A stretch of DNA of 64,000 bases from Dactylonectria macrodidyma. Lineage: Eukaryota; Ascomycota; Sordariomycetes; Hypocreales; Nectriaceae. Position numbers and translations under genes: made by a program. This document shows, piece after piece, positions 1,773 to 50,045 of the stretch. The stretch is taken from NCBI GenBank assembly GCA_020744425.1, contig JAGMUV010000031.1, positions 248,001 through 312,000 on the forward strand. Reading direction: 5' to 3'. The number at the start of each line of letters is the position of its first letter. The first letter of the stretch is position 1. Under the pieces are notes generated by a model that was not told where the DNA came from, made no database searches, and saw nothing but the letters and a program-made list of their open reading frames with translations.

Positions 1773-1841
1773 ATAATAATGGAATTCCGCTTCGTAAGAC
1801 CCGCATCGAAACCAAATCCCCAATTAACCACTACATCAGCC

Positions 1842-2492
1842 ATGTCATCAACAATATCCAGCTCATCCCTCCCCTCTATCCCGACTACGGCTCCTCAGCC
1901 TACGGATCCTCTCGAATTGACATCCTGGGCTCTAGCCAAGGCGCAACTAATACGACCTCATAAAGTCTCGAAGTTCCAGGAGCCATATCGCCTTCCCCGA
2001 CCCTTACAGCTGAATACTAGGTCAAGACAAGGCCGGTCATCTATTCCCAAGCTTGATCTGACCCGTACGCAAAATATCAATGCCATCCTCATCTTTATCT
2101 ACGGGATAAAGCGGGATACCCCCTGTCATCACTGTGCCAGAGGCAATGGGATCTTCCAGGGATGCTACACTGAGAGTAGTATCGCTACTGGCGCATGCGC
2201 CAATTGCGCATACTCGTCGCGCGGGATTACCTGTTCGTTCCATCGTAAGTTGCTACTATTTCTCTGGGTATACTCCGTACACAAGACGCTGACCAAGAGT
2301 CTAGGGCATACCAAGAGTCAACGCCGCAGCAAGAGGCAGGAGTCAGAGGATATTATTAGTACAATTACGCCAATGCAATGGCGCGCTCTAGGGGAGGAAT
2401 TACTACGGCGAGCAGCGGCTAAGAAGGAAATTCACGCATCGCCAGACGAGAATGATCTAGTATCAGACAATTGGTTCCATAGGGATCATTGA
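1842..2492 (+). CDS. Element A gene A: DUF3716-like cysteine-cluster protein, two exons
   Basis: Start chosen at the ATG at 1842 because the homologue in element C begins at the equivalent point; the frame upstream runs into the piggyBac repeat. Exon 1 is 1842-2244. A 60-bp intron GTAAGT...CTAG (2245-2304) is a multiple of three, so the frame stays open through it. Exon 2 is 2305-2492, giving 196 aa. The conserved core has SWALAKAQL near residue 28, LDLTRTQNI near 71, and a cysteine cluster CHHCARGNGIFQGC followed by GACANCAYSSRGITCSFH (residues 95-134). It resembles fungal DUF3716 (recalled, not searched). The tail is basic (KSQRRSKRQ). The function is unknown; DNA binding for transposition or regulation is inferred from the cysteine cluster and basic tail. 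Confidence 0.75.
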   Translation: MSSTISSSSLPSIPTTAPQPTDPLELTSWALAKAQLIRPHKVSKFQEPYRLPRPLQLNTRSRQGRSSIPKLDLTRTQNINAILIFIYGIKRDTPCHHCARGNGIFQGCYTESSIATGACANCAYSSRGITCSFHRKLLLFLWVYSVHKTLTKSLGHTKSQRRSKRQESEDIISTITPMQWRALGEELLRRAAAKKEIHASPDENDLVSDNWFHRDH

Positions 2493-2802
2493 TGGCACCA
2501 GTCGATTGATGAGAATTTATCTAAAGAACAAAGGAAATTGAACAGCCATGTGTTCGGGCACAGTCATTTCAGCTCATGTCGTTAGGATTGGAATCCTTGA
2601 TGCGACAAGGCGGATGTGAAACCGGATACACGACCCCAAAGTACGGGCCGCGTTTCATTTCCAGTCGCACGAACCTAGTAGTGATATGCGACATCTAGCG
2701 CTTATCGGTGTAGGACAAATCAAATGCGTACGCAGATTATTTAAGCTGTAAGAATTTGCGTACGCAGATTTTTGTAATTGCTACTTTAACTACACTTTAT
2801 TA
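2493..2802. promoter_or_regulatory. Intergenic region before gene B with a duplicated TGCGTACGCA palindrome
   Basis: The palindrome TGCGTACGCA occurs at 2725-2734 and again at 2757-2766, each followed by GATT. The second copy ends 37 bp before the gene B ATG. Element C carries the same palindrome at 43607-43616, also about 37 bp upstream of its gene B. The rest of this intergenic stretch shows no gene. Confidence 0.55.
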
Positions 2803-3971
2803 ATGATGCCTTCTGATTCTTGCCCGCGTACGAATTATCTTCATTCTATTCTCCGTCGAACAAATCCGCAATGGCGGGTTTGTATGTATTGCGGAGATGA
2901 CCTTCCCCCCTTCAAGCACAAAGATCTTCACAGCCTCGAACCGTCGTCGACACGATCGATCTTACAGATGAGAGCCAACCCCCATCTCGTAATGTCCTAT
3001 CGGACACGTCCCAGCATGCCTCGGCCTCGTCTATGACTATCCCGACCGGACGACCTCGACTACCATCCGATCAACTAACAACGGCAATTAACGAGGGGAA
3101 TCAGAGCCGCAACCAGCATGCCCAAGCAACACGGAAACTGCCCAAGTCACAGCCATTCGATCTCACTATATTCTTCTATACTGGGGGTTATAAGGACATA
3201 TCACAGGGGTTACTGCAGTCAAAGAAATATCAGGCGGGCAGTCCATATCTCGCCTATAAGGTTACACATTGTTTCGTTACCGATCCTGCCCGACGATACG
3301 AGAGTCATGCCGACTTCGTGAACAGCCTTGTTCGATCAGCTACGACCGACGGCAATTTCGTTCGACTCGACTGGGAACTGATCTCAAGCTGTCAATCGAA
3401 CACACCATCGAGCATCGCCTCCTTCCCGCACGAGATCTATAACACGACCTCACTAATCGAATTTTTACACGCGACACATACCAAGATCGCCTCGCCGTTC
3501 AAGTTTACCCTCTTCTTTCTATACTCGTACGAGGTTACAAGCGATAGCGAGGATCCGTTCACTCCAGCTTCTACTCGTACGGCTAGGGGCAAGACTACTC
3601 ACACCCTATCGTCGTCGCCAACCAAACAGCCTAAGCCATCGCAGTCGAAGGCAAAGAGAACTACCGCCAAGCGAAATCGAACGTTAAGTATGCAGCCTGG
3701 TCAGTCGGAGGACATCAAGGTTGCGCTTGATATTAAGCAAGAGCCCTCGTTTAAGTTTGAGGAGGATTTCCCGGAGGAAGAGATATTCGTGCAAGATGAT
3801 CCCGGCTTTCGTATCGAGGATTTAATTGGAGAGAGTTCGGGAGATAATGTTGGGGTTAGTAAGACGGAGGATACGATTAAGGCACAGACTTCCGCAGGCG
3901 GTGCAAACGTACCTGAGTTTACTATGGTAACACGCCAGCGTACGCAGATTCGCAGAAGCCCTGATCCGTAA
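2803..3971 (+). pseudogene. Element A gene B: zinc-cluster/acidic protein with one frameshift
   Basis: Two frames together match the single 389-aa gene B of element C. Frame 1 from the ATG at 2803 gives a CPRTNYLHS start and the VCMYCGDD motif. After the C6 run at 2905-2910 the match continues in another frame (VDTIDLTDES, MTIPTGRP) and runs to 3971. Restoring continuity needs one added base (or two removed), most simply one more C in that run. The conserved middle includes INEGNQSRNQHAQATR, a CFVTDPARRYESHADFVNS block and WELIS. The C-terminal third is low-complexity, basic then acidic. It may be a true pseudogene or a homopolymer sequencing error. The function is unknown. Confidence 0.7.
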
Positions 3972-4021
3972 GAGGCTAGATATTTACTATCGAGCAAGAC
4001 TACTCTCTTTATTCCTCTCCA

Positions 4022-5628
4022 CTATCTATACTCCCCTGTGCCATCAAGCTCTCTAATACATCTATATCTAAGCCCCGAGTCTCCAACACTTGTGCTAGTC
4101 GCGCGGCCATTTTGCGGGCGCTCTAGTAACTCGACAGCTGGCGTTAACTTGCCTTGGATATATTCTCGGAGACTCGACCTTAAGAGAATATACTCATCCA
4201 TCCAGGGATACTCCGCATTCGATGGAGTCTCTGGAACCACGCCAATAGTATTACTGATAATATCAGAACAGATCGACATAGTATTCTCTGGTAAGAAGTC
4301 GTCAAGCCTCGATATCTCGTCTCGGAAGAGATCAAGGCAGGTTTGGAGCCGATCGGGCGGGATCTCTTCCGCGAAATTCCGGGCATCTGTTGAATCCAGA
4401 TCGTGGTACAGTACTGTTGGCTGACCGCCCCTGACATGGGGCCGACCGGATTGCCGCCGAATAGAATGGCTATTCCACATATGTACGAACGAGATCAAAT
4501 CGCGTCGGATTGGGTTCATGAAGATATAGAGGATAGCGACTCGATCAGCAAGAGAACCACCATCGAAAAGGCCATGTTCGGTAAGCCATTGGAAGTATAT
4601 CTAATCAAGAGGTATTAGCAGCGACCAAGATATATCAAGATAGTAATAATAAAGCTTACTCTCCAAGAGCCACATCTAGCTTGATAAAGCCGGTGCCACC
4701 AGCTCTCGATCCGCGTATTATGAACACTCCTCCCAAAGTACCAACAATCGCGGAATTCGATAGGGATAAGCTGTGACCCGACCTTCTTCTTCCGAATCCC
4801 GGAGAGATAGAAGTGGATGCCGCAGATTAAAGAGGTTTCGCCTCCTTGGTCTGACCTTAAGGCTTTTGGCATCATCCCACGCTGGGTCAAGTCATTAAGA
4901 TACTGAACGGCCACGTTCCAGCTCGTACTAGCAGAAAACCCGCAGTAAAACCAGGTAATATACCGAGAATAGGCATCGATCCCGGCATAGATCTCGAAAC
5001 CCCATTGCTTCAGCTTATCATACCCGTCAATAGACCAAACCCAGTCTGGGCCCGCGACTTTAAAATCCCGGCGATGGTATCGTGCCTTTCCCCATCGCTC
5101 AGTAACAGACTCGGGGGCAAAGTCCCTATACGTAGAATAGAGAGCATCGCGGCTGATCGTATGATGCTGCTGGCGCATGTACGTATAAAGATAACCACGA
5201 CCATAGTTCTGGATCACCGTAGATATCCGTGATTGCTCCTCAAAAAATGATCGGGCACGATCTTTGGCGATTTGTAGCTGTTCAAAGTCTTGTCGTCTAA
5301 ACATGCCGTGTTCTTTTCGAATCTTCCGTAGGCCGGCTATACTGATAGTATAACCTTCGTCTTGCAGGCGACGGAGGATAAGCTTATCCTTTAAGCAATC
5401 TTGGAAGAACATCTGCTTGATACGGTCGCGTAGAGCTGGTGATGTTGTTGTTTTAACTTGACGAGAGAGCCCCCATTCCTTGAGGTTTCGGTAGAGCGTT
5501 GAGCGACCAATGTCAATGCCATAGTCGGACGAAAGAGACTCGATAATAGACTGGATTGTTAAATCGTCCTCGTATAGGATTGTAATCTCCTGACGAAGGT
5601 GGGAAATATTAATAACTGGTCGAGGCAT
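4022..5628 (-). CDS. Element A integrase-type DDE transposase, two exons
   Basis: Exon 1 is 5628-4660 and exon 2 is 4600-4022 on the minus strand. The 59-bp intron (GTAAGC...ATTAG) keeps phase 0, giving 515 aa. The start at 5628 (MPRPVINISHLRQ) aligns with element C. Residues 1-60 look like a helix-turn-helix region. The catalytic core has WVWSIDGYDKLKQWG, ALRSDQGGET and HNTRIESWWHRL, giving a D-D-E triad. Exon 2 carries RDLISFVHMWNSHSIRRQ. The fold is of the integrase core type. It resembles eukaryotic integrase-like transposases (possibly the group called IS3EU in repeat catalogues), but that name is a guess from memory. The gene converges on gene B with a 50-bp gap. A possible LTR now starts three bases upstream of its start codon, so its promoter is probably lost. 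Confidence 0.85.
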
Positions 5629-5631
5629 TTT

Positions 5632-6466
5632 TGTAACGGTTCCAACTGAGTATATTGACAACGAGCTGGGCGATTACAACGAGTATCCTAAAGCTACGGA
5701 AGAAGAGAAGAAAAGAAGGAAAAGGGGGAAATGAAGAGAGCTCCTATTGTTGGAAGCGGCCCGGAATGAGGGGTGCCGAGATTTCAAGGGTGAGATTCAA
5801 TGCCGCAAGGCATTCCCGCCCCCCCCCCTGATAATTATATGTCACAACTATCATCAGACTCTAGGATCATGTTTGCTTTTTTGTGCCCTCATGACAGGCC
5901 ACAGGCTCGAGCCCCCTGAAGGCTCGGATCCCTGACTTAGGTCACGAGACTGTCTTTTCCTTCATGTATACAAGGGCTGATTTAGGCCCTTCAAATAGCT
6001 AGAAATCAAGAGCTTCTATTCACATCACAATGCACCCTTCCTATCCGATGCAACATTATACCAAAATTCCTATGCAACTAGGGGAATGTAGGAGTACAAA
6101 TACCCCTACTCAATCCCTCGGTTAGAAGCCTTCCTCCGTAGCTCAATGATATATCTCTTCTGCCCACGCCCTTAGTTGCACAACTCGTCTTTTGAGACCT
6201 GTCGCTCTCGAGCGTGTGTGTGTCTTCGGTGCCGGCGTTGATTGGTTAGTCGAGAGTTCAAGCCGAAACCCCTACGGGCTGGGCCCGATCAGGCCTCGGC
6301 AAGAGTCCCAACTGTTGCCCAGCCAACTATCGAGATCAACGCAGACTTCTTTTTGTCAGGCTGGAAGAATTCCAGCCCTGCGTTCCGCTCTCCTTTTCCT
6401 TAGGATTAGTTCACTCGTAGTACTCGCCATAGTTTGTTGTAAGTACACACACTTTGGACCGTTACA
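5632..6466. repeat. Candidate solo LTR or LTR-like insertion (about 835 bp)
   Basis: The segment starts TGTAACGGT and ends ACCGTTACA, a perfect 9-bp terminal inverted repeat of the TG...CA type. No long reading frame or known gene lies inside. A TATACAAGG motif near 5967 could be a promoter. The flanks (ATTTT on the left, ATAGG on the right) show no target duplication. It sits exactly between the integrase start and the middle of the first exon of the fourth element gene. In element C those points are about 1.1 kb apart, so this junction accompanies a deletion. It could instead be a DNA element with short inverted ends. Confidence 0.5.
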
Positions 6467-6552
6467 ATAGGCGAATTGTCATCGGCGGCGAGGGACTTGA
6501 ATGTCGAAACATCCTCGCCCTTGATCTTGGAATCGACGGTCGTCGCCATTGT
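6467..6552 (-). pseudogene. Element A fourth gene, N-terminal remnant only
   Basis: On the minus strand an ATG at 6552 opens MATTVDSKIKGEDVSTF and reads for about 28 codons until the LTR-like segment begins. Its position and weak similarity (opening MAxTV, then a G/S-E-[DE] stretch) match the start of the fourth gene of element C (MASTVTFALPTDLDGVP, start at 47595). The rest, including the cysteine cluster, is absent. Confidence 0.45.
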
Positions 6553-6959
6553 ATGAGCTCAATCGGGTTCGGTCGTGCTCTATGGGGCGCGTTTGGGTTC
6601 GTACGTATCCGGACAGGGTAGTTTTCTGCACGGACCTGTCGATATAAAGTTAGCGTCCTGCACAGAAAATATGTCAACGTAGAGGAAAAATGGGCAAAAG
6701 GCGCATTTGACTATAGCTTTCGCGATAGATTTTGTACAGAGAAAAACTATATCGCATGCTATAGAAGCTTCAAAAATGCGTATATCGCTATACGTATCTG
6801 AAAATGAGTGCAAGGAAGAAAAAAAAAAACACATGGTAGGAGCTGCTGATGTTTTTAGAATGGGCTGTATGACTAATTAAGCGGGGTATCCCAAAAATGG
6901 ATATGCGATAGGCAACAATCGTCATTCACCCCTAGTGTATGCCAATTGAAATTTGAGTT
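6553..6959. other. Right subterminal region of element A, no gene seen
   Basis: About 400 bp between the fourth-gene remnant and the nested piggyBac. It contains AT-rich stretches with repeated TATATCGC/GCGATA-like motifs (6716-6800), which may be subterminal transposase-binding repeats. An A10 run lies near 6822-6831. No supported reading frame is present. Confidence 0.4.
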
Positions 6960-9181: not shown

Positions 9182-9300
9182 GAGACCATCGAGGTTGGGA
9201 CTTCATAATATGAATAGGAAAACGTTAAAACGGGATTATTCGATATTTGTGGATGCGGTAGGGTACCCCTATTGAAGGGTTTTGAGTTATGGGACACTTT

Positions 9301-9474
9301 TGTCACGATGTGTATTTGGGTAGCAGGGCGTGTATATGGCGTATGCCTGCTATAGCAATATCCTTCTAGCTATTTTAGCATAAAGGGTGTACAGGGACTC
9401 AGAGCGGGGACTTGACACAATCAAGAACATACACACACCCAATCAGGTGCCACACACGACAAAAGCTCGTGACA
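9301..9474 (+). repeat. Solo LTR, 174 bp, with ACTTT target duplication
   Basis: Starts TGTCACGATG and ends AGCTCGTGACA. It is flanked by perfect direct repeats ACTTT at 9296-9300 and 9475-9479. The same 174-bp sequence, diverged, occurs in reverse at 20285-20458 with its own duplication. Solo LTRs arise by recombination between the two LTRs of a retrotransposon. This one splits the right terminal repeat of element A. The internal coding region of this family is not in the window. Confidence 0.9.
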
Positions 9475-9495
9475 ACTTTGCATTACAGTCAACCG

Positions 9496-12400
9496 TACCC
9501 AAGCGCTAACTACGTACGGATTGTCCTGTTCAATGCGCGGACTTGAAAGCACTACCTTCGGATCGATGCCAGACTGAGAGGTGACAAGCACTTATTCATA
9601 TCGTCGCGCTTAGATCGTAGCTGGACACAGGTAGGCACTATGTGTTCAGGGCTAATCTCAATGTCAGCCCGAGATTTAATAGTCACTATTTCTTATCAAA
9701 GTCACTCTGTCCTAACAGTTACTTGACAAGGCTTAGAACCTCAAGCCCGAAAAGCTTTCGGCATTGGTAGAACGGCGCTGATCGACCGATGATGTCATGC
9801 TGTCGTAGCTTTGGTGATTCCCAGCGTCCCACTACCAGCGCCCTGAAACAGAGCGTGAACTTTCGTTTTCTCGCGCTTTGGCCTCCGCCTGCTCCCTCTA
9901 ACCTTAATAGATCAAAGCGATCCAGTCTCGAACCCCGACTGGCTTTACTCCCTTTCCTTTTTGAGTGACCACCTGTGAGGCCAGCTGGAGCTTTCCGCTG
10001 TGGCGTTGGTGTGCGGGGTGTGCTCACCACAAGCCGCTCAGACCGACAAACAGCGTCGGAGACCCGGCGCCACGCGTAGCCAGCAGCGACATTAGGCCCA
10101 TGATGATCTTGGCAAGGAGGGACGAGGTGATGCAGTCACGGGCAGATGCTGGTGATTGCTCTCGAGCGAAGCTTTCGGGCAACCCAAGATCAAGCGGGCC
10201 GGTCCTTGCCCACTAATCCAAGGATGGCATCCCCCCCCCCCCCCCACCCGTTCCGGGGGCCTAACCGTGAGGGGCATCTCGCGTCCTCCACCACGGCACG
10301 TTTGCAGAAAAGGCACATTAATAATGGCACTTTTAGGGCGAAGGGATGACATGGTCTCCAAGCAGGTCCGATTTTTCTTTCATCACTATAGCAGGACTCC
10401 TTAATATTGATTTGTGGTGGAAGATGAGCGCCATAGCAAATTTCGAATAACTTATTTGGGAGCTTTGGTGGAACGTGTTGGATGAGGGAAGCTACGCCAA
10501 TTGGAGATGGGTTCTTGATAAAAGAGCTTTGGTTGGGCTGAGGAGGGCTATTAACAAATCGGATGAATGGGTTCTGCGACCCATTCTTGGTGATGTTGGG
10601 ACTTGGTTTCGGAGGCGAGCCAGTTCTCGCTGGGCTTTACTTGTAGCCGCCTGCGTTCTCTCCTTCGGTTAGTAGATACTGGATGAAGGGCCATGGCATA
10701 CACGGGATCTAATGATTACCTGCCGTATGAGTAAATTGATGAACTAATGATTTGATCTTTCTCTTGACCCTTCTCTTGAGCTCTCTCTTGTTTACCGGCT
10801 TCTCATCTGAACTCCGCCGTTTATTTAGGGGGTTTGGTTTTGACACTCCTAGCTGCTTGATTCAGTTCTTAGCTTTCTGGCTCGCCGAACGGCTTATTGC
10901 ATCGCTTGGGTTCTGCAGTTGATTATTGGCTTACTTGCTTTTTCAGTTGGGAGTTGTAAACTTGAGGCACGGACCATCCATGTCTGGTTCATGGCCCGCA
11001 TGTTCCTCCTAAACCGGAAGGAAAAAAAAAATGAGAATCCGTTTTTTCAATGACGAGCAGGGAAAGAACATACTTGACGTTCCGAGTACTGATTCTTAGC
11101 AGCCTAAAACCTCCTTCTCCAACAGGCATCTCAAAACCACCAAGTCCGGTCTTGGAACTGGCCCAACCCGAACGATGTGTCCCGGTCCATTGGGCAACGT
11201 TGAGAAAGGGGCTGCTTCCCCACCACGAATCGGATTTTGATAGCTCTGCCGTGTCAGGGCATGGTGGCGATGTGCCCGGGGGAAAGGATCCGCAGAGTCC
11301 TGCAGGTTTGTCCTGATTCAGGGTCGTTCTGACTTCCCGGGTTGTGGTTGCGGCATTTCAAGTGTGCCTTGCTTCTCGCAGTCGTCAGTTATGTGGGAAC
11401 GGCCCCGCCAATGCTGGGGTGGTTTTGATTGTTCGCGTTGAATAGTGTATGGAGAGTGAAGGGCGAGGCCTTGCAGATTGTTGGAAACGGACCAGATATG
11501 ACAGAGGTTGGCCGTTTGCAAGTCCAAAAGCAGCATCTTGCACCAATAGCCTGTGCGACGGCAGTAACAAGGCCGCCGCAGCGGTCAGGGTAGCCCGGTG
11601 ATCAAACTTGCATGCATTCCCCACTTCGCCGGGGCCATGGTTCGGTTCTCACCCCGACTTCGGGTTCGAAAGTGGAGGAGACAAGGGAGACATCGACAAA
11701 GAACAAAAGACACCTTTGCCATGGAATCAAACCCATTGTGATTACCTTTGTCAATCGATTCGGCCCGCTCAGCTTACACACACATCGAGAGCTTCCCCGC
11801 CGCTGCTTCTAGCTTGTACTATACAAGTCCTTCTCATAGGCGCCGCGGAGATACGAAGGAGGGGTCTGAGACACATTTGTGGGACACCCCCAAGCCGCCC
11901 TCGTCACACCCTAGCTTGATGCGGCGCATATCACATGTTGATACACGATGATCATACGGGCCGTCCTCCCAACGGTTTAGGTTAGTTAATCGCCTCAAGA
12001 ACGCTGGCCACTCGCAATACCAGGTCCTTGATGGCATGGCCGATGGAGGCAGGGACCTTGAAAAGGGGGATCGAGATGGGAAGTCCCCATGGCACGGATC
12101 TGGCGGCAGGCAAATAGGGAAGGAAAAAGAAATTAGTTTTCTGTAACTTAGTTATAAGAAGATATGTTTTATTCTATTTGTTAATATGTATGTATGTATA
12201 TTTTTCGTCCGGGGGACCGCGAGGCCCGTAAAAGTCCCCTATTGGGGCACAGGACGTGCTGGGCTAAACTATCTACAATTGCTTGCCGCATTGGACCTTA
12301 CTCAGACCATCTGCAAGGCCTCTTAGGAGCTATATGCATGCTCAATCCCTCCAAAGGCACTTTTCTACTCGTAGCCAGCCCTAAGTAGTGTCCGCTAAAG

Positions 12401-26410: not shown

Positions 26411-26583
26411 TGTGAGGGAACGATCAGGTGACTTTCATACTTTATGAATGATCTCGCTTAAGTTATGAATATCGTGTAAATAGCTTGAGTCAGAGTTTCC
26501 CCTGAGGAATCTCTTTCTCTCCTCGTAAACAATCATTTTGCCCAAGTCGCACTCGACCTCGTTCGTGCCCTTGTCCCGTCACA
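26411..26583 (+). repeat. 3' LTR of the Gypsy element
   Basis: 173 bp, matching the 5' LTR along its whole length as read. It ends CACA at 26583, directly abutting the helicase open frame. Confidence 0.97.
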
Positions 26584-34321: not shown

Positions 34322-35557
34322 ATGGCCCCAACTCTTCTGTACTGCCCCAGCCGGGCCCGTACTCAACATGCCACGATCTTACGGGATAACCCCTCTTGGG
34401 TCTCCTGTCCGTATTGTGGCACCCTCCTAGCCGACAAGCCCTCCAACGCTTCCTCTGACGATGACCTTGAAGAGGTGGACTTCCAGAACCTACCCGACCG
34501 AACCCGAAAGGCCTTTAAAGCGAGCGAACGCCCCCAACCGACACTGTACGCCTCAAACGCCGAGTCGCCCGCGGTGTCTACTCATCGAGCCGGCGCAACC
34601 GCTTTCTCTTCTGCCCTTCGAGAAGCTGATAAAGCCCGCCAGACTAGCATTCAGAACGACAAGAGTAAGGCCGAACGGAGTAGTATGGAGCTTACGCAGC
34701 CCCGTAAGATCGGGATTTCGTTGTACTTGTACGCTGGGAATTACTGTACGGCCGAGTCTGGTGGTATCGAGACTCTTGAGTGGTTCGACGTCATGGCCGT
34801 ACATAGGTTTCCGATGGCCGTACAGTTCAGTACGACCCTGGAAATGGATACACACCAGCAGTTGATGTCAGCCATCATCAAACGGTTCTTCTCGAATTCG
34901 GGGGAGTGGGCGAAACTAGCTGAACGGGAGTGGACAGCTATTCCTATCGATGGGAAGCCACTAAGCCTGAACTTGAACGTTCGGTTCTGTGAGGCGACGT
35001 ACGAGTCCACTCAGCTATGGGCATTCCTGTTGCAGACAGGACTTCTACCTCGGTCGGAAATCCGCCGACACCTACGTACTGGCATCTCGGCCGAACAACC
35101 AGAACGGGATGAAAAGGTCAGTACGAAGGGGAAAAGGACCGTACTGGCCCAGCCACAAGGACGTAAGCGCAATACGTCCGAGTCACTGGCTAGTATTACA
35201 GTCAAGGTCGAGGAACAGTCTACTTCAACAGCCAAACGAATCAAAACGGAAGCGGATGGGCCAGTACAGAAGGCCAACAAGAAGGTAGCCATACCGGTCA
35301 AGGCCGAGGCCAGCGGGTCAACTCAACAGGATTCAGCCAAAGCGGAGATGAACGGCCCCGTCCGGGGGGTAAAGATCAAGGACGGGACGGACAAGCCTGT
35401 TCGGCGGACATCTGAAGGATGTAGTATAGACGACGATTGCGAAGATCCCTTTGGGGATAACCCTTTGCAGTCCGACCCCTTCGAAGTATTCAAGGGTACA
35501 CGTTCGCACGCGAAAGGTTCTGAACAGGCCTTCCAGGAAACTACAGACCTCGCTTGA
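34322..35557 (+). CDS. Element B gene B homologue
   Basis: 411 aa from ATG 34322, no introns or stops. It has the same architecture as gene B of elements A and C: an N-terminal WVSCPYCGTLLADKP zinc-ribbon-like pair, an acidic DDDLEEVDF box, a central conserved domain (ISLYLYAGNYC, WFDVMAVHRFP, FFSNSGEWAKLAEREW), and a long charged, low-complexity tail containing several KVEEQ/KAEAS/KTEAD repeats. Sequence identity to A and C is low, so element B is a separate lineage. It converges on the integrase remnant with a gap of only 3 bp. The function is unknown. Confidence 0.6.
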   Translation: MAPTLLYCPSRARTQHATILRDNPSWVSCPYCGTLLADKPSNASSDDDLEEVDFQNLPDRTRKAFKASERPQPTLYASNAESPAVSTHRAGATAFSSALREADKARQTSIQNDKSKAERSSMELTQPRKIGISLYLYAGNYCTAESGGIETLEWFDVMAVHRFPMAVQFSTTLEMDTHQQLMSAIIKRFFSNSGEWAKLAEREWTAIPIDGKPLSLNLNVRFCEATYESTQLWAFLLQTGLLPRSEIRRHLRTGISAEQPERDEKVSTKGKRTVLAQPQGRKRNTSESLASITVKVEEQSTSTAKRIKTEADGPVQKANKKVAIPVKAEASGSTQQDSAKAEMNGPVRGVKIKDGTDKPVRRTSEGCSIDDDCEDPFGDNPLQSDPFEVFKGTRSHAKGSEQAFQETTDLA

Positions 35558-35560
35558 TAG

Positions 35561-37145
35561 CTAGTTTCGAGCTGACCCTGTCTCCGAATTTACATCCCAT
35601 TCGTTATCGGAATCGTCCGTTCCCCCACGAACATGCCCGTCCAGATCAAATCCTCGTGTCCTCAGCTCGTCCTCTAGATGTCGAATACCTCCAGTTGGCG
35701 GCTTCTGGAGGTGTAATCGTGGGTCGACTCCGGATTTATGGTGATCCTCAAGTTGTTCACGTAAGTAAATGTACGAGCGATAAAGAGGAATATCGACACC
35801 ATTTACACGGCGCTGTTCGCTCCCATCCCTGACCGAACGGCTGGGTACGGACGTACAGAGCGCTAATACCTCGGCAGAGAGATAGGAGGATAGATCGAAT
35901 GATCTGTAACCAAGAAGTTCCTCCATCTCCTCTAGCACGGCCGGGATAATTGGCTCCCTGTAATCCTCCGTACGGGACTGTTCAGGGTGGTGATAGAGGA
36001 CGTACGGGACCCCAGGAACGACGTGAGATCGGTTGGACTGTTTGCGGATGTAATGATTGTTCCATACCCGTACGAAGCCGCGCAGGTCCGTATCTAAAGG
36101 TTCCGTATATATATATGGAAGGTCAATCTGGTCGTAGATCTGAGTTGGTTCGAAAAGCCCGATTGTGTGTAGGGTCCCGAAGACAGTCTGCACGTATTGT
36201 TAGTAACGGGGCGTTTAGGGACGCTCGGAGGCGCTCAAGAGTATCCTTACCCGCCAAAACTGCGAACGGCCTTTACAAAGACGATTCCACCAGCTCTCGA
36301 TCTTGACGTTATGGATGCTCTTGCCGTACACAAAACAGTCCTTAAACTGAATTGGTACAGCCTCGCCCGTAAGTGGCTGTACCCGTTCGCGCCCGGTCTG
36401 ACTTGAGTGGTACCAATGGAGGCCAGCAACAACCGGAGTTTCCTTCCCACGATCAGCCCGTATAATCCGAGGCGTAAAGCCAAGTTCGCGAACGACCGAG
36501 AGATACTGGAGCCCAACGCCGATGGACGTGTGCGTACTAAAGCCGACGAAAAACCAAGGGATATATCTCGAGTACGCGCCAATCCCAGCGTAGACCTCAA
36601 AGCCGTACGGCTTTAATTTATCGTACGCATCGATTGACCAGATGAAATTTGGCCCGGGGCAGGTCCAGCCCGTACGACGCCGTCTGAACTCGTCCAGCCG
36701 GTCCCGGAAGCTTCGTTGGTGGACCTCTTTATAGGCAGAGTAGAGGACATCTCGGCTTGTGTGTCACATGTAAATGGAAAGATGTCATGCATGTGAGGGT
36801 TGTAGAGAGTCAAATTAGCCTTAATCACTGCTCAAGTCAAGAGGACGAAGGTCCCAGTTATATACACAACAATGGTGTCCAAGTGGGTCGGGACGCCTCC
36901 TCGGCTGGGGCGGAATATCGTTTGACGTTGTGGACAATCCTTGTTGGCGCAGCTCCGTTCGGAGATATTCGCGCCCGTACCCTGCTAAACGGCTCGTTGG
37001 GTCAACCGCTTGGGCGATACAATCAACGGCCTGTTCTCGTAAGGTAATATTTTCCTCTGGAGTATGCCGCTTGCGAAGGCCCATCTCTTGACGTAGCCGT
37101 ACCAGGCCTCTTTGGGTAATAGAAAGGGAATTGATAGGGGGGCAT
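35561..37145 (-). pseudogene. Element B integrase-type transposase, 5'-truncated and disrupted
   Basis: Exon 2 (36187-35561) follows a 63-bp intron (36188-36250, GTAAGG...GTGCAG). Exon 1 homology runs upstream with all catalytic residues: IWSIDAYDKLKPYGF, IIRADRGKETP and IHNVKIESWWNRL. Near 36745-36880 about 100-160 bp of unrelated sequence interrupts it between YLRTELRQQ and TSRDVLYSAYKEV. Homology resumes upstream (ITQRGLVRLRQEMGLRKR) and then stops near 37145, so roughly the first 95 residues are missing. The interruption could be an unusual intron rather than an insertion. The gene lacks a proper start and is probably dead. Confidence 0.75.
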
Positions 37146-42281: not shown

Positions 42282-42644
42282 GGTGTCTGAAAATTGGTGA
42301 TATTACAGAAAAATGAGGCAAATCTAATGACGCAGAGGGAACCACGACTCGGAATTTCACGTTTTATACGTCATGTCTACTTACATAAGCCGCCTGGGCC
42401 CATGAGTATGGTTGACTGTAGGGCTCACTGTCTCAAAACCCTTTTTCCAAAAAATTTCATCATTAGAGCCACCCTAGCGTATCTACATATGCCTGAAAAC
42501 CCCAATTACATGAATATTCAATTAAAGCAAGATGAATATTCCATATACAAGGTCATACAACAATTTTTCCTCCTGTACACGTCATCTTTTCCCTGTCACA
42601 TTCTCCATCAATACATATCAGCAAAAACACCAACTGTATTACAT

Positions 42645-43227
42645 ATGTCACCTCCAATTAACTCCGCAACTGCCAAGCAGCCATCAAACAAAGCTGCACT
42701 CACGTCATGGGCTCTTACAAAGGCGCAATTGCTACGGCCTGCAAAGGTGATAAGATGTCAAGAGCAGGCAACAGAGAGCCGTCTTTTACAGCTGAATACA
42801 CGAGCTAGACAAGGGCGGTCTTCATCAACTGGCCTTGACCTAACCCGTACACAGAATATTGATGCACTACTCATCTATATTTATGGGACTTTACGCACAC
42901 CTTCCTGTATGCAATGTGCAAGAGGAAATGGCATTTTTGAAGGGTGTATCACTAAGAGTGATATTGCTGCTGGCGCATGTGCGAACTGCACATATTCATC
43001 GAGAGGAATTCGATGTTCATATCATGGTAAGTTATTGAACCTTTCTTTATATAATAAATACTAATAAGAATAAATTAGATCGGCCAAAAGAAACACAGTT
43101 ATCTCGATCCATAATAGAGAAAATCGTGAAGGAGTCTACACCTGATCAACTACGTGCATTTGGAGCAGATCTAATTGAAAGAGCTAAGATCCAAGAGGAA
43201 CTTAGCTCCACACAACCCGAAGAGTAA
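42645..43227 (+). CDS. Element C gene A: DUF3716-like cysteine-cluster protein, two exons
   Basis: Exon 1 is 42645-43026 and exon 2 is 43079-43227, joined over a 52-bp intron GTAAGT...ATTAG, giving 176 aa. The start at 42645 (MSPPINSATAKQPSN) is the first ATG after the terminal repeat that keeps the conserved core. It shares ALTSWALTKAQLLRP, LDLTRTQNIDALLIYIYG, CMQCARGNGIFEGC and GACANCTYSSRGIRCSYH with element A; the core is about 60-70 percent identical by eye. The C-terminus is helical and charged (ADLIERAKIQEEL). Codon use is more AT-rich than in element A. The role in transposition is unknown; a DNA-binding or regulatory function is inferred. Confidence 0.78.
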
Positions 43228-43653
43228 CTAGTCTAGGATTACAGGTGATGAGTCATGTTGCATCTAGCTGATGGAAATGATCATATATGTGAGAAGCTCT
43301 TGATATTCTTCCTATCTAACGAGGGTCTTTGGGTCAGTCTTATAGACGAAGAAAGTGATGATGACCTCGGATGACCTCGGACAGCCGAGAGACTCCGGAT
43401 GCTTCGGGGTCTTGGCTTTATCTAGCTATTGACCTGAATGAAGGAAATGCTAGGCTGGTGACGAGGCTGGTGACGAGGCAGGTGGCGATGGACGCCTATG
43501 ATGATAGAAGGAAAAGCTTCACTTCCGCAGTAGCCGTTGAGATCCGATATACCGATATATGACAGTCATTAGTGCTAATATTCTCTGTATTTAATGTGAA
43601 AATTTTTGCGTACGCAAATAATTTAACTTAATCCTTCTTTATTATTCCTAACC
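43228..43653. promoter_or_regulatory. Intergenic region before gene B with TGCGTACGCA palindrome
   Basis: Contains TGCGTACGCA at 43607-43616, about 37 bp before the gene B start, as in element A. A short local duplication GATGACCTCG (43361-43380) and GGCTGGTGACGAG (twice, 43452-43477) is also present. No gene is seen. Confidence 0.55.
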
Positions 43654-44823
43654 ATGAATTCCGCAATCTGTTCCAAGAAGGGTTATCTCCATTCCGTTGT
43701 ATTGGAGTTAAACCCAGACTGGGTTCGTTGTTATTTCTGTGGAGAGAATATTATACCTTTAACTCTTCCTTCTTCTGCCAATCCTCAAATTGACATGGTC
43801 GATTTGACTGAAGACAGCCCAATCCCACCTACACACGCACGATCACGACGACTCCAACATGCACCTGCACCTGCAATGACTATCCCTTCCTATAATCCTG
43901 CTCAACTGGAATCCGCTGTCAATCAAGGCAACCAAAGCCGAAGTCTCCACGCTCAAGCTACCCGAACGAAGTCGATACCCAATACACCCATTGAGTTGGC
44001 AATTACCTTATATACAGCAGCATATAAGTGTATATCAAGCGGTCAATTGGATATCAGGAAGTGGCAGTCTGGATCTCCTACTATCGCTGGGAGAGTTGGC
44101 AATTGCTTTGTTACAAACGCAACACATAACTATCCTTCACATGCGGACCTTGTGAGATCAGTTGCTGCACGTGCAACAACTGATGCAACATATCGGGCCG
44201 TTGACTGGGAGTTCATTTCTGGTTGCACCAGTAACAGTTCGCAAAGTATTGTTTTCTTTTCTCAGGAAGTTCTAGAGACAACTTCTCTTGCTGCATTTCT
44301 CAATGCAATCAATCCTCAAAGTCCGCATCCAACCAGGGTCAATCTGTCACTTCTTTATGCTTATGAAGCGAAAGAGGAGGAAGATAACATGATCACCCCT
44401 GTTCCAGTGCGAAAGAAGAAGTTCAAGGGCGAAAAGGATCTATCTCTTCCAATACAAAACAAACCCCCAACACAATCTCCAATTAATCGCAAACGAAAGG
44501 CATCTACACAATCAGCTCCAGCAACAGATAAGAAGGTAAAGGTAGACAAGAAAAATGAGGAGATATTGGTCTTACTAGAGAAGTCTAATGAAGAAGATGA
44601 CTTAGCTGCATTCTTCGATACTGATGTGGATGGATCGGATTTGAATGGACAAGATAATATGGTTATAGAAGTGGCTGGGCAAGGTAGTGAGGATTTGGAG
44701 GCACTTATATCAGATGATGGAAGTAGAGAAGTTATTGAGGAAGATGTAATTAGTACAGGGCGGAAGACTGGCAGTAAACAGCCACTGCCTCCATTAAGTA
44801 TGGTAACTCGCCAGCGTAAGTAG
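43654..44823 (+). CDS. Element C gene B: zinc-cluster protein with acidic tail
   Basis: 389 aa from ATG 43654 with no intron. The N-terminus has a CX2C-type pair (VRCYFCGENI) and an acidic IDMVDLTED box. The central domain, about residues 75-240, has VNQGNQSRSLHAQATR, CFVTNATHNYPSHADLVRS and WEFISGCTSN, shared with element A. The C-terminal third is lysine-rich (KKKFKGEKD, NRKRKASTQS, DKKVKVDKK), then strongly acidic, and ends PLSMVTRQRK, matching TMVTRQR in element A. The basic runs look like nuclear localisation signals. It is probably an accessory protein of the transposon; no enzymatic motif is visible. Confidence 0.75.
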   Translation: MNSAICSKKGYLHSVVLELNPDWVRCYFCGENIIPLTLPSSANPQIDMVDLTEDSPIPPTHARSRRLQHAPAPAMTIPSYNPAQLESAVNQGNQSRSLHAQATRTKSIPNTPIELAITLYTAAYKCISSGQLDIRKWQSGSPTIAGRVGNCFVTNATHNYPSHADLVRSVAARATTDATYRAVDWEFISGCTSNSSQSIVFFSQEVLETTSLAAFLNAINPQSPHPTRVNLSLLYAYEAKEEEDNMITPVPVRKKKFKGEKDLSLPIQNKPPTQSPINRKRKASTQSAPATDKKVKVDKKNEEILVLLEKSNEEDDLAAFFDTDVDGSDLNGQDNMVIEVAGQGSEDLEALISDDGSREVIEEDVISTGRKTGSKQPLPPLSMVTRQRK

Positions 44824-44851
44824 TTTCCATCTTCTCAAGTCTTTTCCTTTA

Positions 44852-46442
44852 TTAATCAGCTGCTATCCATGAATCAAACACTTCAATGTCAATATTCTGA
44901 GCCTGTAGAATTTGACTAAGTCGATCTCGCCCATCTCGAGGTCGGTCAAGTAAGGATAGTCGTGGTGAATTCCCATTCTGAATATAAAGAGCCAATTCAC
45001 CTCGTAGAAGATTGTACTCATCTAAAAGTGGATGTGTGACAACGTTCGAAATTTCTGGTAAAGAGCCAATTGTCGTTGTAATGATAGCTTGACAAATAGA
45101 CATTGTTTCTTCTGGCAAGAAATCATCCAGATCAGATTGATCAAGTTCAAAGGTTTCCTGACAGAATCTGAATCGATCAGGTGGAATCTCTTCAGCAAAG
45201 TTCCGTGCAGTCTCTGAATTGAGATCATGATATAGAACTGAGGGTTGTCCAGGTTGAACATGTGGTCGATTGGCTTGACGGCGAATAGAATGGCTATTCC
45301 AGACTCGTATAAATGAGATCAAGTCATGTCGGATTGGATTCATGAAGATGAATAGAATGGAAATGCGATCAGGAAGAGAGCCGCCATCAAAGAGCCCATT
45401 TTCTGTCAGCCATTGGAAGTATATCTAATCGAAGAGAATTAGTAAAGTTCAATAAGGAATAATAGAAACTTACCCTCCACGATCCTCCACGTGCTTGATA
45501 AAGCCGATGCCACCAGCTCTCAATTCGAGTATTATGAATACTTCGTCCAAAAAACCAACAATCCTTAAACTCAATTGGAACTAACTCTGTTCCAAGTCGT
45601 TTCTTTCTATTCCCAGAAAGAAAGTAATGTAAGCCACACATCAAAGCTGTTTCCCCTCCATGATCAGATCGAATAGCTCGTGGCATCATACCACGTTGCC
45701 GCAGAACTGATAGATACTGTAAGGCAACGTTCCAACTTGTTGCAGCAGAATATCCACAGTAAAACCATGTAATATATCGGGCATACCCATCAATACCAGC
45801 ATAGATCTCAAAGCCCCATTGCTTAAGCTTATCATAACCATCAAGGGACCATACCCAGTCAGGCCCTGGAACAATAAAGTCACGACGTTGAAAACGTGCT
45901 TTACCCCATCGATCAGTAATGCTTTCAGGTGCAAAGTCTCGATAAACATTGTACAATGCATCGCGACTGATGATGTGATGTTGTTGCCGCATGTAGGTGT
46001 AAAGATAGCCTCGACCATAGTTTTGGATAACAGTTGAGACTTGAGACTCATCATGAAAGAAGGTTCGTGCAAGTTCTTGAGCTATTTGAAGCTGGTTATT
46101 ATCTTGTCGTCTGAAAAGACCAAGTTCCCGACGGATCTTGCAAAGTCCAGTGAAGCTTAAACTGAACCCCTCATCTTGAAGCCGGCGTAAGATAATAGCA
46201 TCTTTTAAACACTCATCAAAGAACATTGACTTGATTCGGTCTCGTAGAGGTTCAGTGTCAACTGTACGCCGTTGACGGAGGAGTTCCCATTTCTGTAGAA
46301 ATCGGTAAAGAACTGCGCGACTGACTTGGATGTTGTAATTGGTAGAAAGAGAAAGAATAATATTTGAGATTGTTGTATCTTCATCAATTAATATAGTAAT
46401 ATCCTGACGGAGAGGGGTGAGGTCTATTCGGGGCCGAGGCAT
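44852..46442 (-). CDS. Element C integrase-type DDE transposase, two exons
   Basis: Exon 1 is 46442-45474 and exon 2 is 45424-44852, with a 49-bp intron GTAAGT...GATTAG at phase 0. The intron position is identical to that in element A. The product is 513 aa. The N-terminal 110 residues are helical and probably bind DNA. The catalytic triad is D201 (WVWSLDGYDKL), D260 (AIRSDHGGET) and E308 (HNTRIESWWHRL). Other conserved blocks are VIQNYGRGYLYTYMRQQ and SLPDRISILFIFMNPIRHDL. The enzyme is expected to cut and join the 32-bp ends. No stop or frameshift is seen, so it may be active. The DD and DE gaps are 58 and 47 residues. Confidence 0.88.
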
Positions 46443-46806
46443 GTTGAATAGAATGGAAAGAGGGGAAAGAAAATTTAGAAAGATTGAGAATGTATAGATG
46501 AAATAGAATAAGTAAACGCATGTTTAGTAAATAAACCTTTAATTACATATAATATTTAGATAAATATTTTATTAAAAAATTTATAACTATATAAAATGTT
46601 AAAATATCTAAGTTAGTTATCACTTTATGTATTAATTTTTAGAAAACATAGAAAAATTTAATTCTTTTTTAAAGGTTGAGTCTGTATATTTCTTTACAGC
46701 TCTATTCGTAACTCATCAGGACTATACTAATCCTTATACTCAAATCTTCAGAAAGCCAGGCCCATATGTCCCTGTACTGCTATGTTCGCAGCTGATCAGA
46801 ACTAAA
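46443..46806. other. AT-rich divergent-promoter/terminator spacer of element C
   Basis: About 360 bp, strongly AT-rich around 46510-46680, between the integrase start and the end of the fourth gene. It should contain the integrase promoter. No gene is seen. Confidence 0.5.
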
Positions 46807-47595
46807 CTAATCACTATCGCTAAAAACATCGCCATCCAGAAGAGCTTCGAAGATATTCTTCATGGTGCGAAGTGATTTCTGGTCCAGACTCTTGAGCGCG
46901 TCAGTAATGTCCTTCGTAGTATAGTCCTGGCCAGATTTTTCCATCTTGCTCTTTTTCTTGCCCGATTCCTTTTTCTTCTTCTGTCGCTTGGAAGTATGGT
47001 CGTCGTCGGAGGAGTCATCGCGGGATCGCTTCTCGACATCTGTAACTATTAGCGATAGGCCTTGATCAGACGCGTACAGGCATGTATGGAACTTACCAGT
47101 CACAATCGAGCAGTGTTTGGCCTGACCACCATAGTGATAGGAGGCACAACCCGGAGACATTGCATTCAATGTCACATAAGCATTGAATATACCAGTATTG
47201 TCCTTGCACTTCTTGCACGCCTTCTTGTCCTCGAGTTCCTCGCCGTACATGAATTTGACCAGGGAATCGGCAGCTTGAGGGCGTGTGAGCGACATCACAG
47301 GCATGGCTTTGCCGGCCTTGGTCTGTCGAGGGCGGAGCGTAATGAATCGGCGCATCTATTCCACAGTTAGGCACATACAGAGCTGTACGGATTCGATCAA
47401 ATGGATACTCACCGAAAAATCTGCGTTGGGTTCGAAAATGATAGCGGCCTTGGCAGTAAATGCGTTCTTGGCCTCGTAGAACCACCGAGCGGTCGTGTGC
47501 TCGGGCGACATGTCGAGCGCGTCGATGTTTTCCTCGGATGGGATCGGGACGCCGTCGAGATCGGTGGGCAGCGCGAAAGTAACGGTGGACGCCAT
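46807..47595 (-). CDS. Element C gene D: second DUF3716-like cysteine-cluster protein, three exons
   Basis: Exons 47595-47413, 47355-47097 and 47039-46807 are joined over two 57-bp introns (GTGAGT...GAATAG and GTAAGT...TTACAG), giving 224 aa. The N-terminus is MASTVTFALPTDLDGVP. The cysteine region ACKKCKDNTGIFNAYVTLNA then PGCASYHYGGQAKHCS mirrors the CxxC...GNGIF...GAC...CS pattern of gene A, so A and D look like distant paralogues. The third exon is very basic (TSKRQKKKKESGKKKSKMEK), a probable nuclear localisation signal, followed by an acidic end. The function is unknown. Element A retains only the first 28 codons of what appears to be its counterpart. Confidence 0.7.
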
Positions 47596-47955
47596 TGTTT
47601 GGTGCGGTACAGGCGTGTACGAACGTGTATGCGCGAAGTCGTGGTGTTGTGCGATCGTGAACGTGGAGCTGCGGCAGGCGATGTTGAGCGATGTTTGGCG
47701 ATGTTTGGTCGCGTATGAGCCTGTAGACGAAGTTCAAAAAAAACAACAAAAAAAAATCTGTAGCACGAAGAGTTTCAATTGCGCGCCCTAAAAAAAGAAA
47801 AATCTTTATACACCTGCTTTACAGCTGTAACGGTCTGTACACGACTGTAAATGGGTGTATTCAAATTATCGCCAATGCTGCAATTGGAGTACGTTGAAGT
47901 CATATATTCGGTTTGAAGGATATTAAATATGTGAACAGGCCTGTACACGCCTGTA
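47596..47955. other. Right subterminal region of element C, left of pogo
   Basis: Contains A-runs near 47736-47756 and repeats of the CTGTACACG-CTGTA type at 47834-47844 and 47940-47955. Similar words flank the pogo on its right side (49914-49931), so they belong to element C and not to pogo. No gene is seen. Confidence 0.5.
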
Positions 47956-49895
47956 AGTCGCCCACCCTAGTTATGGCCCACCCCTGGCTTTGGCCCACCC
48001 CAAAAACGCGCTCCGCCGCACGCGTCAGATCCGCGCTACCACCTACAATAAATTGTTAAAAATCGGATTTTTCACCAATTGACTTACTTTCTTTTGTATT
48101 TTCCTCTCCGTGTTCGAAATGCCTGAATATACAGAGCAGGACCTACAAAACGCCATCGTGGACGTCAGGAATGGTGTTGCCGTCAGGACCGCTGCCACAC
48201 GCCATGGAGTACCAAGAGGGACACTTCGCGCCCGCCTTAATGGTGCCCAACCTCAACGTACGGCACACGACGACCAGCAGCGGCTCACAGCCAATCAGGA
48301 AGAACATCTTAAGCAATGGATTTTGCGGCAGGAGGCCCTCGGTTACGCGCCAACACACGCACAAGTGCGAGCAATCGCTAGCAGCGTGCTTAAACAACAA
48401 GGTGACCACAAGCCCCTAGGGAGGAAGTGGTCCAGTCACTTCGTGGAGCGCCATTTAGCCGTCAAGACAAAGTTAGGCCGTCGAACTGACTGGAAACGTA
48501 TAAATGCGGCCACTCCGGATAATATCAGGCACTTGTTCAACCTATACGAGACTGTGAGCTGGATCCCTCCCCGGCGGAGGTACAACGCCGACGAGGGCGG
48601 CATTATGGAGGGCCAAGGCATTAACGGGCTTGTTATCGGCTCCTCGCAGGAGAATCCTAACGCGGTACCAGTCAAAACGATAAATGCCCGGACTTGGACG
48701 TCTATCGTGGAGTGCATCTCGGCGCTCGGGGTCGCTTTGAACCCCCTGGTCATCTTCAAGGCCAAAAGTATCCAAGAACAATGGTTCAAGAAGGATTTCC
48801 TAGCTAAGCATCCTGGCTGGCATGTTACCTTTTCGGAAAACGGGTGGACAAGCAATGATATTGCTGTCGAGTGGCTAGGGAAGGTGTTTTTACCCCAAAC
48901 GCAACCTGAGAACCCAGCCGATAGTCGCCTACTTATCGTCGACGGTCACGGCAGTCATACCTCGGACGAATTTATGACTATGTGTTACCTAAACAACGTT
49001 CACTTACTCTTTTTCCCTGCTCATACTTCCCATGTCCTCCAGCCCTTGGATCTCGGCTGCTTTTCCAGTTTAAAAACGGCCTATCGTAGGCTAGTTGGCG
49101 AGCATACGGCTTTGACAGATACGACAAAGGTTGGAAAGGCAAACTTTCTCGAATTTTATGCGAAAGCTCGAGAAATTGGTCTTCGAAAGGAAAACGTTCA
49201 ATCCGGGTGGAAGGCGACAGGCTTATACCCTAAAAACGTAGCCAAACCTCTAAATTCTCGATGGGTCGTGGTGGCTAAACGGCCAGCTATACCACTACGT
49301 GTCACCTCGGATATTTCAACACCAAAACGCGGCGGCGACGTCGTAAAGCTATTTGCTGAGAAGAGCGGCTCTCCCACTTCACGACTGTCTATTCGAAAAG
49401 CCGCTGCGGCGTTGGATAAGGTTGCGATGGAGGTTATACTAAGGGACCTTGAGATCGAACGCTTGCGGGTGCAACTCGCCCAGGCAAAACCGCCTAAACG
49501 TCGCAAAATCGTCCAAGATCCGAACGAGCGCTTTGCAAGCCTTGCGCAGATACTTGCACAAGCTAATCGAGAGCCTCAACAACGTGTTCGGAAGGCAAGA
49601 AATGCGGTACAAGAGGTCATTATCGTGGGGGGGGAGAGTAGCTCTGAGTCGGAAGAGGAGCCGGCACTGGCTCGACGGTCGGGACGCAATCGGCGACCAA
49701 CAAAACGCTATATGGAGCGAGATTCAAGTGCAGACGAAGAAAGCGACTAAAGAGCGCCAAATGCGATTTTCCTTGTATTTTTACCATTTAATTTGACTTT
49801 GTTGCGACCTAGTTACGTCGATGTACCAGTTGTGCGATGTAGGCTAAATAGAGCGGGCCAAAGCCAGGGGTGGGCCAAAACTAGGGTGGGCGACT
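47956..49895 (+). mobile_element. pogo/Fot1-type DNA transposon, 1,940 bp, intact
   Basis: Inverted repeats begin AGTCGCCCACCCTAGTT at 47956 and, on the other strand, the same at 49895; about 41 bp match with one difference. TA is duplicated at 47954-47955 and 49896-49897. It is nested in the right arm of element C. Both tips and the transposase gene are complete, so it may be autonomous. Confidence 0.96.
48119..49750 (+). CDS. pogo/Fot1-type transposase
   Basis: 543 aa from ATG 48119 (MPEYTEQDLQNAI); a GTG three codons earlier also keeps the frame. Domains: HTH_psq (residues about 5-45, GVAVRTAATRHGVPRGTLRA), CENP-B-type second helix-turn-helix (about 55-120, THAQVRAIASSVL, KWSSHFVERH), and the DDE_1 catalytic core with acidic residues in YNADEGGIMEG, LLIVDGHGSHTS and SHVLQPLD (DDD type). 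The C-terminal tail is helical and basic. The length is normal for the family. No disruption is visible. It cuts and pastes into TA sites. Confidence 0.95.
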   Translation: MPEYTEQDLQNAIVDVRNGVAVRTAATRHGVPRGTLRARLNGAQPQRTAHDDQQRLTANQEEHLKQWILRQEALGYAPTHAQVRAIASSVLKQQGDHKPLGRKWSSHFVERHLAVKTKLGRRTDWKRINAATPDNIRHLFNLYETVSWIPPRRRYNADEGGIMEGQGINGLVIGSSQENPNAVPVKTINARTWTSIVECISALGVALNPLVIFKAKSIQEQWFKKDFLAKHPGWHVTFSENGWTSNDIAVEWLGKVFLPQTQPENPADSRLLIVDGHGSHTSDEFMTMCYLNNVHLLFFPAHTSHVLQPLDLGCFSSLKTAYRRLVGEHTALTDTTKVGKANFLEFYAKAREIGLRKENVQSGWKATGLYPKNVAKPLNSRWVVVAKRPAIPLRVTSDISTPKRGGDVVKLFAEKSGSPTSRLSIRKAAAALDKVAMEVILRDLEIERLRVQLAQAKPPKRRKIVQDPNERFASLAQILAQANREPQQRVRKARNAVQEVIIVGGESSSESEEEPALARRSGRNRRPTKRYMERDSSADEESD

Positions 49896-50045
49896 TATTC
49901 AATATGTGATCGGGCCTGTACACGCCTGTAGTGTGCAGCTAGTGAGATTTGGGTTTTGAGACAGTGAGCCCTACAGTCAACCGTAATGGGCGGCCCATGC
50001 TGCATGCTCGAACACTCTAGCGTGCACTCTAGCACAGCTCTTAAA

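Follow-up and report, generated by a model that had tools for sequence, protein, structure and literature searches.

Among the closest described systems is Styx of Zymoseptoria which, in the portions of its report consulted here (PMC10853768), has an IS3EU-related DDD/E integrase, four open reading frames (ORFs), two of them with putative DNA-binding motifs (GATA, CCHC), 36-bp terminal inverted repeats (TIRs) and a length of about 8 kb; its authors propose a two-protein ancestor. IS3EU elements, as outlined in the excerpts consulted (Kojima 2023, 2025), have TA..TA termini, which in rust fungi read TAYGG..CCRTA with TIRs longer than 30 bp, a transposase without the HHCC integrase domain, and extra genes convergent to the transposase. 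GingerRoot has an integrase-related transposase and mostly TA..TA ends and groups with IS3EU in one lineage at 99% bootstrap, according to the part of PMC10045372 seen. Likenesses to all three are found in an element of Dactylonectria macrodidyma that lies in a window of 64,000 nucleotides (GCA_020744425.1, contig JAGMUV010000031.1, positions 248,001 to 312,000, forward strand). Coordinates below are those of the window and are collected in Table 1.

A sequence-only reading of this window had proposed inverted repeats enclosing a two-exon integrase, two DUF3716-like genes (A and D) and a gene B, and had taken them as a conserved set of four in a candidate new system. The enclosed genes are borne out by ORF and Pfam evidence, and both A and D do match PF12511. 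The interpretation stands in part: this is an autonomous transposon with a DDE integrase and accessory genes, while the set of four is not conserved and the system is not new. Very probably, the whole is best explained as an IS3EU-like cut-and-paste transposon with TAYGG..CCRTA ends and a DDE integrase (PF24764), in which integrase and B form the core and DUF3716 is a movable accessory.

Integrase and convergent gene B as the common core

The host assembly searched comprises 77.3 Mb in 77 contigs, and the genome match counts are lower bounds. The integrase exon has at least 109 matches and PF24764 at least 110; gene B has at least 32 (family 1/2 query), A at least 56, D at least 52 and DUF3716 at least 70. 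The DNA was read for 16 copies or fragments of family 1, the window copy included, for three family-2 elements, and for one element each of family 3 (L054), the L056 type and the L055 type.

Integrase and B stand tail to tail in families 1–3, in the W3 type and in the L056 group. Merging the 109 integrase-exon matches with nine picked from the PF24764 search gives 99 loci, at 66 of which a convergent B lies no more than 3.5 kb away; one shows B in another arrangement and 32 have none. Among near-complete integrases (at least 900 nt, which drops 49 of the 109 matches), compared with 68 hand-picked B places, 43 of 60 are accompanied by a convergent B at up to 6.5 kb, the chance expectation being about 0.003 per integrase. 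Sorted by integrase identity, the pairing is 8/9 in family 1, 9/9 in family 2, 12/14 in family 3/W3 and 11/11 at 35–36% identity, together 40/43, and it is 3/17 in the most distant band (25–33%). The family-1 miss (C47:152673) is explained by a copy split by insertions, with B further off within the same ends. In the other direction, an integrase is missing from the surrounding 3.5 kb at 25 of the 90 B places; some of these belong to split copies and many are short fragments. The commonest core is an integrase with a convergent B, and it is present in most relatives examined.

The B proteins of families 1 and 2 are certain homologues (z 79). More distant pairs score z 11 (family 2 with family 3), 8.1 (family 3 with the L056 group, G4), 5.0 (family 2 with G4) and 3.6 (family 1 with family 3). 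We treat B as one family because of these intermediates, its position and its invariant columns, which are C6, H13, P21, C26 and C29 in six sequences. The cysteine-histidine pattern is presumably of a zinc-binding type. A [VI]DLT motif follows this finger in 9 of 11 sequences and resembles a SUMO-interacting motif. Gene B has no Pfam family above the cut-off, and neither A nor B has a Pfam match to TET, kinase or other enzyme families. No clear match came from the literature on SUMO motifs, on integrase transposons of Nectriaceae or on IS3EU in Fusarium.

The catalytic residues of the integrase are D201, D260 and E308, in conserved alignment columns. In the structure predicted for the integrase exon, helices at the N-terminus precede an RNase H-like core (mean pLDDT, the predicted local distance difference test score, 80.8; pTM, the predicted TM-score, 0.46). 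With this model the top Foldseek matches are IstA (E 1.6e-4) and TnsB (E 2.2e-4), with TM-scores up to 0.30; the predicted fold matches are weak, but of the expected kind.

Three integrase copies (C67:620684, C23:586678, C12:141872) carry 29–32 stop codons, TAG or TAA, as repeat-induced point mutation (RIP) would give, and each still has a B beside it that is just as degraded. A protein encoded on a 3525-bp contig (P0042) shares 99% identity with gene B, and family 1 thus has close relatives outside the present assembly.

Ends and target site duplications

The window element measures 7579 bp. The repeats had been read as perfect over 32 bp; these 32 bp are real and lie inside the true repeats, which are 35 bp long and match at 34 of 35 positions. 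Other scored family-1 copies begin with TACGG and match at 35/35. Tips of the form TAYGG..CCRTA (TATGG/TACGG..CCGTA) and terminal repeats of 34–39 bp occur in 13 of 13 elements scored at both ends; L055 was left out of the scoring since its left tip is altered. The 15-base tip has 26 exact matches genome-wide, above chance and mostly at ends of family-1 copies. When two mismatches are allowed the tip pattern is uninformative, with 84+96 matches genome-wide against 146+127 for the reversed control.

An exact 5-bp target site duplication (TSD) flanks 7 of the 12 scored elements of families 1–3, and a 6-bp TSD flanks none. The seven are 4/8 in family 1 (C28, C32a, C19a, C47a), 2/3 in family 2 (C4, C32) and 1/1 in family 3 (L054). 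No TSD was found for the remaining five, namely the window copy, C31, C42, C47b and the family-2 copy C26. A 6-bp TSD for family 1 is ruled out by this scoring of copies. The single L056-type relative has an exact 6-bp TSD.

Repeated CTGTACACGCCTGTA-like blocks at 47815-47955 and 49896-49930, between gene D and the right end, are candidate subterminal binding sites.

A nested pogo transposon

The length of the window element includes a separate, complete pogo-type transposon of 1940 bp, with a DDE_1 transposase (E 1.6e-39), terminal repeats and a duplicated TA (47954-47955 / 49896-49897). In copy L037 the TA at this site is unoccupied, and the window element without pogo is 5637 bp, consistent with the 5601 bp of L037. 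The nested transposon is outside the element's own gene set and had been missed by the earlier reading. A single compact element in the window is ruled out by its presence. Of what had been seen from the letters, the repeats and genes are upheld, and the extent, the nested pogo and the nature of a second relative (below) are corrected.

Decay of gene D and movement of DUF3716

Family 1 contains A, B, integrase and D. Family 2 contains A, B and integrase (L051–L053, read end to end); in these three the D query matches only gene A, and in the remaining stretch of L051 and L052 no DUF3716-like ORF is apparent among the ORFs listed. Family 3 (L054) has a DUF3716 gene upstream of the integrase, at the position of D, followed by integrase and B, with about 245 bp from B to the end. 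L055 has DUF3716, B and integrase in a further arrangement, and the L056 group has integrase and B only, L056 itself being 3580 bp. The six-cysteine DUF3716 protein therefore varies in position. Its gene may adjoin B, lie upstream of the integrase, occupy both ends or be missing.

Of the 16 family-1 copies, 2 have an intact D and 10 a broken one; in the other 4 the stretch that was read, short in three cases, showed no D. The intact ones are the window copy and L045 (2 of the 12 in which D was seen). A, B and integrase are jointly intact in 6 of 16. Five copies (C28, C31, C32a, C32b, C47b) have in common an identical loss of 315 nt in D. In C28 (L031) the D region also bears an insertion of about 215 bp that starts with TG, ends with CA, is flanked by AAGGC and resembles a solo long terminal repeat (LTR). 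C28 and C32a have a wrecked D yet perfect 5-bp TSDs, and therefore elements with a broken D have moved, with or without D supplied from elsewhere. In family 1, D is decaying while A, B and the integrase have stayed intact.

The claim of a conserved set of four fails on these observations, D being absent from family 2 and broken in most family-1 copies, and the L056 element holding integrase and B alone. One could argue that all four genes are nevertheless needed as a set, the copies with broken D being mobilized in trans by intact ones. D is indeed intact in two family-1 copies, and Styx copies with a dead integrase are reported to move in trans (PMC10853768, in the part consulted). However, three family-2 elements read end to end have no D, two of them with clean TSDs, and the L056 element, also with a clean TSD, has integrase and B only. 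We regard the need for all four as very unlikely.

Integrase copies that consistently lack the accessory genes but keep the same ends had been named as evidence against an accessory set. Such copies exist with respect to D, in family 2 with its very similar ends, but not with respect to B, which stays with the integrase in families 1–3 and the L056 group. The other such evidence would be accessory genes living as host genes elsewhere. Of the 70 DUF3716 matches, 13 lie more than 6 kb from any integrase or B, and three of these were judged to be family-1 fragments. The other ten solitary matches may be host genes or parts of other elements (C77:1769088, C7:514160, C3:951968, C27:285264, C8:561574, C35:232709, C14:897951, C45:123670, C24:54886, C76:87053).

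Selection and origin of the accessory genes

Between two family-2 subfamilies (dS 0.8-0.9), the ratio of nonsynonymous to synonymous substitution rates (dN/dS) comes to 0.075 in the integrase, 0.081 in A (117 codons, skipping two stop codons where the L051 stretch entered an intron) and 0.28 in B. Comparison of family 1 with family 2 is saturated, and within family 1 the ratios (B 2.7, integrase 0.8) come from a handful of differences, too few for use. A is as constrained as the integrase, and purifying selection is clear on B too. The suggestion of an autonomous transposon whose accessory genes are retained by selection is upheld by these values.

They also bear on the view that A, B and D are passengers captured by chance, of no benefit to the element. 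The decay of D and the absence of DUF3716 from the L056 element agree with such a view. It is opposed by the selection on A, equal to that on the integrase, by the clear constraint on B, and by the place and orientation of B, which are kept across integrases only about 35% identical. We consider it very unlikely.

In the integrase tree, families 1 and 2 group with relatives from Hirsutella and metagenomes (99/97), family 3 with Fusarium xylarioides (99/99) and the L056 group with Pleurostoma (99/97). A predicted protein of Seiridium has DUF3716 fused upstream of the integrase, at the D position, and DUF3716 occupies that position also in family 3 and in the W3-type loci C31 and C44. From this distribution the simplest story is that the upstream DUF3716 (D) is older, and that the common ancestor of families 1 and 2 gained A afterwards as a replacement, making D redundant.

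Other features of the window

The sequence-only reading had recognized a diverged relative ('element A') with the same gene order, orientation and intron position. The order of A, B and integrase is indeed conserved in this family-2 relative; no D was found in it. The copy is rearranged, its left end being reversed and displaced from its genes. It is flanked by two inverted stretches of a piggyBac-type transposon (PF13843), 1-1776 and 6958-8733, that are 1776 bp long and 100% identical. With the reversed left end lying beyond them, it looks as if recombination between these stretches inverted the segment. The displaced left end is itself interrupted by another insertion at about 9303-9474. This inserted element, with TGTCACGA..TCGTGACA ends, occurs both there and in L047 from position 584, with apparent 5-bp duplications ACTTT and GCTCA. 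It sits about 21–23 bp inside the terminal repeat of one family-2 and one family-1 copy, and the interior of the terminal repeat is possibly its preferred target.

A third relative, of type W3, is listed in Table 1. A host-like gene at 41498-42280 (PF03641, 'possible lysine decarboxylase') starts immediately left of the family-1 element. The stretch 22292-26398 encodes the polyprotein, with a chromodomain, of a Gypsy-type LTR retrotransposon between direct repeats 20709-20881 and 26411-26583.

Table 1. Coordinates of the family-1 element, its genes and its relatives in the window.
Feature	Position	Strand	Remarks
Whole family-1 element	42407..49985	n/a	ends judged from other copies
Left terminal inverted repeat, 35 bp	42407..42441	+	TATGG...; 34/35 match to right repeat
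Gene A, DUF3716 protein, 176 aa	42645..43227	+	exons 42645-43026 and 43079-43227; PF12511 E 8.9e-14
Gene B, 389 aa	43654..44823	+	N-terminal C..H..P..C..C, VDLT, acidic and basic tail; no Pfam family
Integrase-type transposase, 513 aa	44852..46442	-	exons 46442-45474 and 45424-44852; PF24764 E 2.5e-27
Gene D, second DUF3716 protein, 224 aa	46807..47595	-	three exons; PF12511 E 1.1e-6
Separate complete pogo-type transposon, 1940 bp	47956..49895	+	ORF 48119-49750; DDE_1, HTH_Tnp_Tc5, HTH_psq
Right terminal inverted repeat, 35 bp	49951..49985	-	...CCGTA; paired with left repeat
Family-2 relative ('element A')	1777..6957	n/a	A ~1887-2450 +; B ~2806-3941 +; integrase ~5628-4103 -
Displaced inverted left end of family-2 copy	9182..9497	-	comparison with L051
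Third relative, type W3	34322..36763		B-like gene 34322-35557 +; damaged integrase 36763-35561 -

Discussion

A mechanism can be proposed for the element. The N-terminal helices predicted for the integrase would bind the TAYGG..CCRTA repeats; the integrase would then excise the element and insert it at cuts staggered by 5 bp, or by 6 bp in the L056 group. This cut-and-paste mode is assumed from the family. The protein of gene A probably works within the transposition complex or regulates it, as suggested by purifying selection equal to that on the integrase. Gene B, judging from its motifs and basic tail, would most likely be a nuclear adaptor tying the complex or the insertion site to SUMO-marked chromatin or to repair proteins. 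The roles of A and B are offered as hypotheses. In its widest form, which we put forward tentatively and consider rather unlikely as a whole, the proposal is that of a widespread fungal IS3EU-like lineage in which the integrase is accompanied by an element-encoded, SUMO-reading zinc protein B that couples cutting or insertion to SUMO-marked chromatin or repair sites, DUF3716 being an exchangeable third module with a role in transposition and the stagger having changed from 6 to 5 bp within the lineage.

Several observations weigh against the explanation favoured here, an IS3EU-like element with a core of integrase and B. The structure prediction for B has a mean pLDDT of 34.9, a low confidence, and so no fold backs a function of B. 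The [VI]DLT motif is absent from the B sequences of W3 and L055. For 14 of the 17 integrases in the 25–33% band no B was detected by the queries used; B may be missing there, or may have diverged beyond the reach of these queries. The B proteins of family 1 and the L056 group score z 1.4 when compared directly, which is within chance. A protein-database search for B gave only Ilyonectria and metagenomes (5 proteins), although the integrase turned up in several further genera; this could mean that B is a partner of narrow distribution or that it evolves too fast to be found. The deep branches of the integrase tree, on which the order of gains rests, are weak (82/84). Finally, D could still work in trans from intact copies.

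Alternatively, A and B could evade host silencing, such as methylation or RIP, rather than aid transposition, in the manner of the TET/JBP genes of other fungal IS3EU. In rust fungi these genes lie between the transposase and a convergent alpha-kinase gene, as the consulted part of PMC12730594 describes, and the stop-riddled, RIP-like copies C67, C23 and C12 are present in our genome. On the other hand, A and B match no enzyme family in Pfam, and the present results hold no tie to silencing. We rate an escape from silencing as rather unlikely.

Whichever role the accessory genes have, the two-gene core with its movable DUF3716 and the split between 5-bp and 6-bp TSDs are the parts worth following. 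The element offers a first testable context for DUF3716 and for gene B. Within a single genome, the two-, three- and four-gene families amount to a natural deletion series for accessory roles, and TSDs of 5 and 6 bp within one lineage give a handle on how the stagger of an integrase-type transposase is set.

The set of four genes is not conserved, and it has a precedent. The designation as a candidate new system does not hold, since Styx, a four-ORF element related to IS3EU, is already published (PMC10853768, as far as consulted). It could even be that we are dealing with an ordinary IS3EU member, its additional genes already entered in Repbase; this is a possibility to be taken seriously, though an unlikely one. 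Repbase held 45 IS3EU families in 2022 (PMC10045372, in the part seen). 'DUF3716' was not found by name in the literature searched, which omits most subscription journals; PF12511 does appear there, in one paper. The novelty of the gene set, judged against that literature, is provisional.

The nearest solved structures to the integrase model are IstA (IS21), TnsB (Tn7) and MuA, a weak resemblance (TM-score 0.17-0.30, about 11-14% identity), and unlike these systems the present element shows no ATPase partner gene. GingerRoot differs in its 6-bp TSD and was described from clubmoss and animals, in the part of the report consulted. With IS3EU the agreement is closer: the termini are TA..TA, the TIRs exceed 30 bp in 13/13, the first catalytic D of the DDE transposase (D201) falls within the span typical of IS3EU, 100-300 residues from the N-terminus, and Pfam finds no zinc (HHCC) integrase domain. 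In the excerpts consulted, the extra genes of rust-fungus IS3EU encode alpha-kinase and TET/JBP proteins instead of B and DUF3716, and the TSD of IS3EU in general is usually 6 bp, in contrast to the 5 bp of families 1–3. The L056 type does have 6 bp; families 1–3 do not, and the element is therefore called IS3EU-like. Styx likewise differs in a 6-bp TSD, and its domain of unknown function is DUF3577, not DUF3716 (PMC10853768, same portions). Compared by description only, both have four ORFs, and in the window element Pfam gives DUF3716 and no GATA, CCHC or DUF3577. The two-protein ancestor proposed for Styx fits the core of integrase and B found here.

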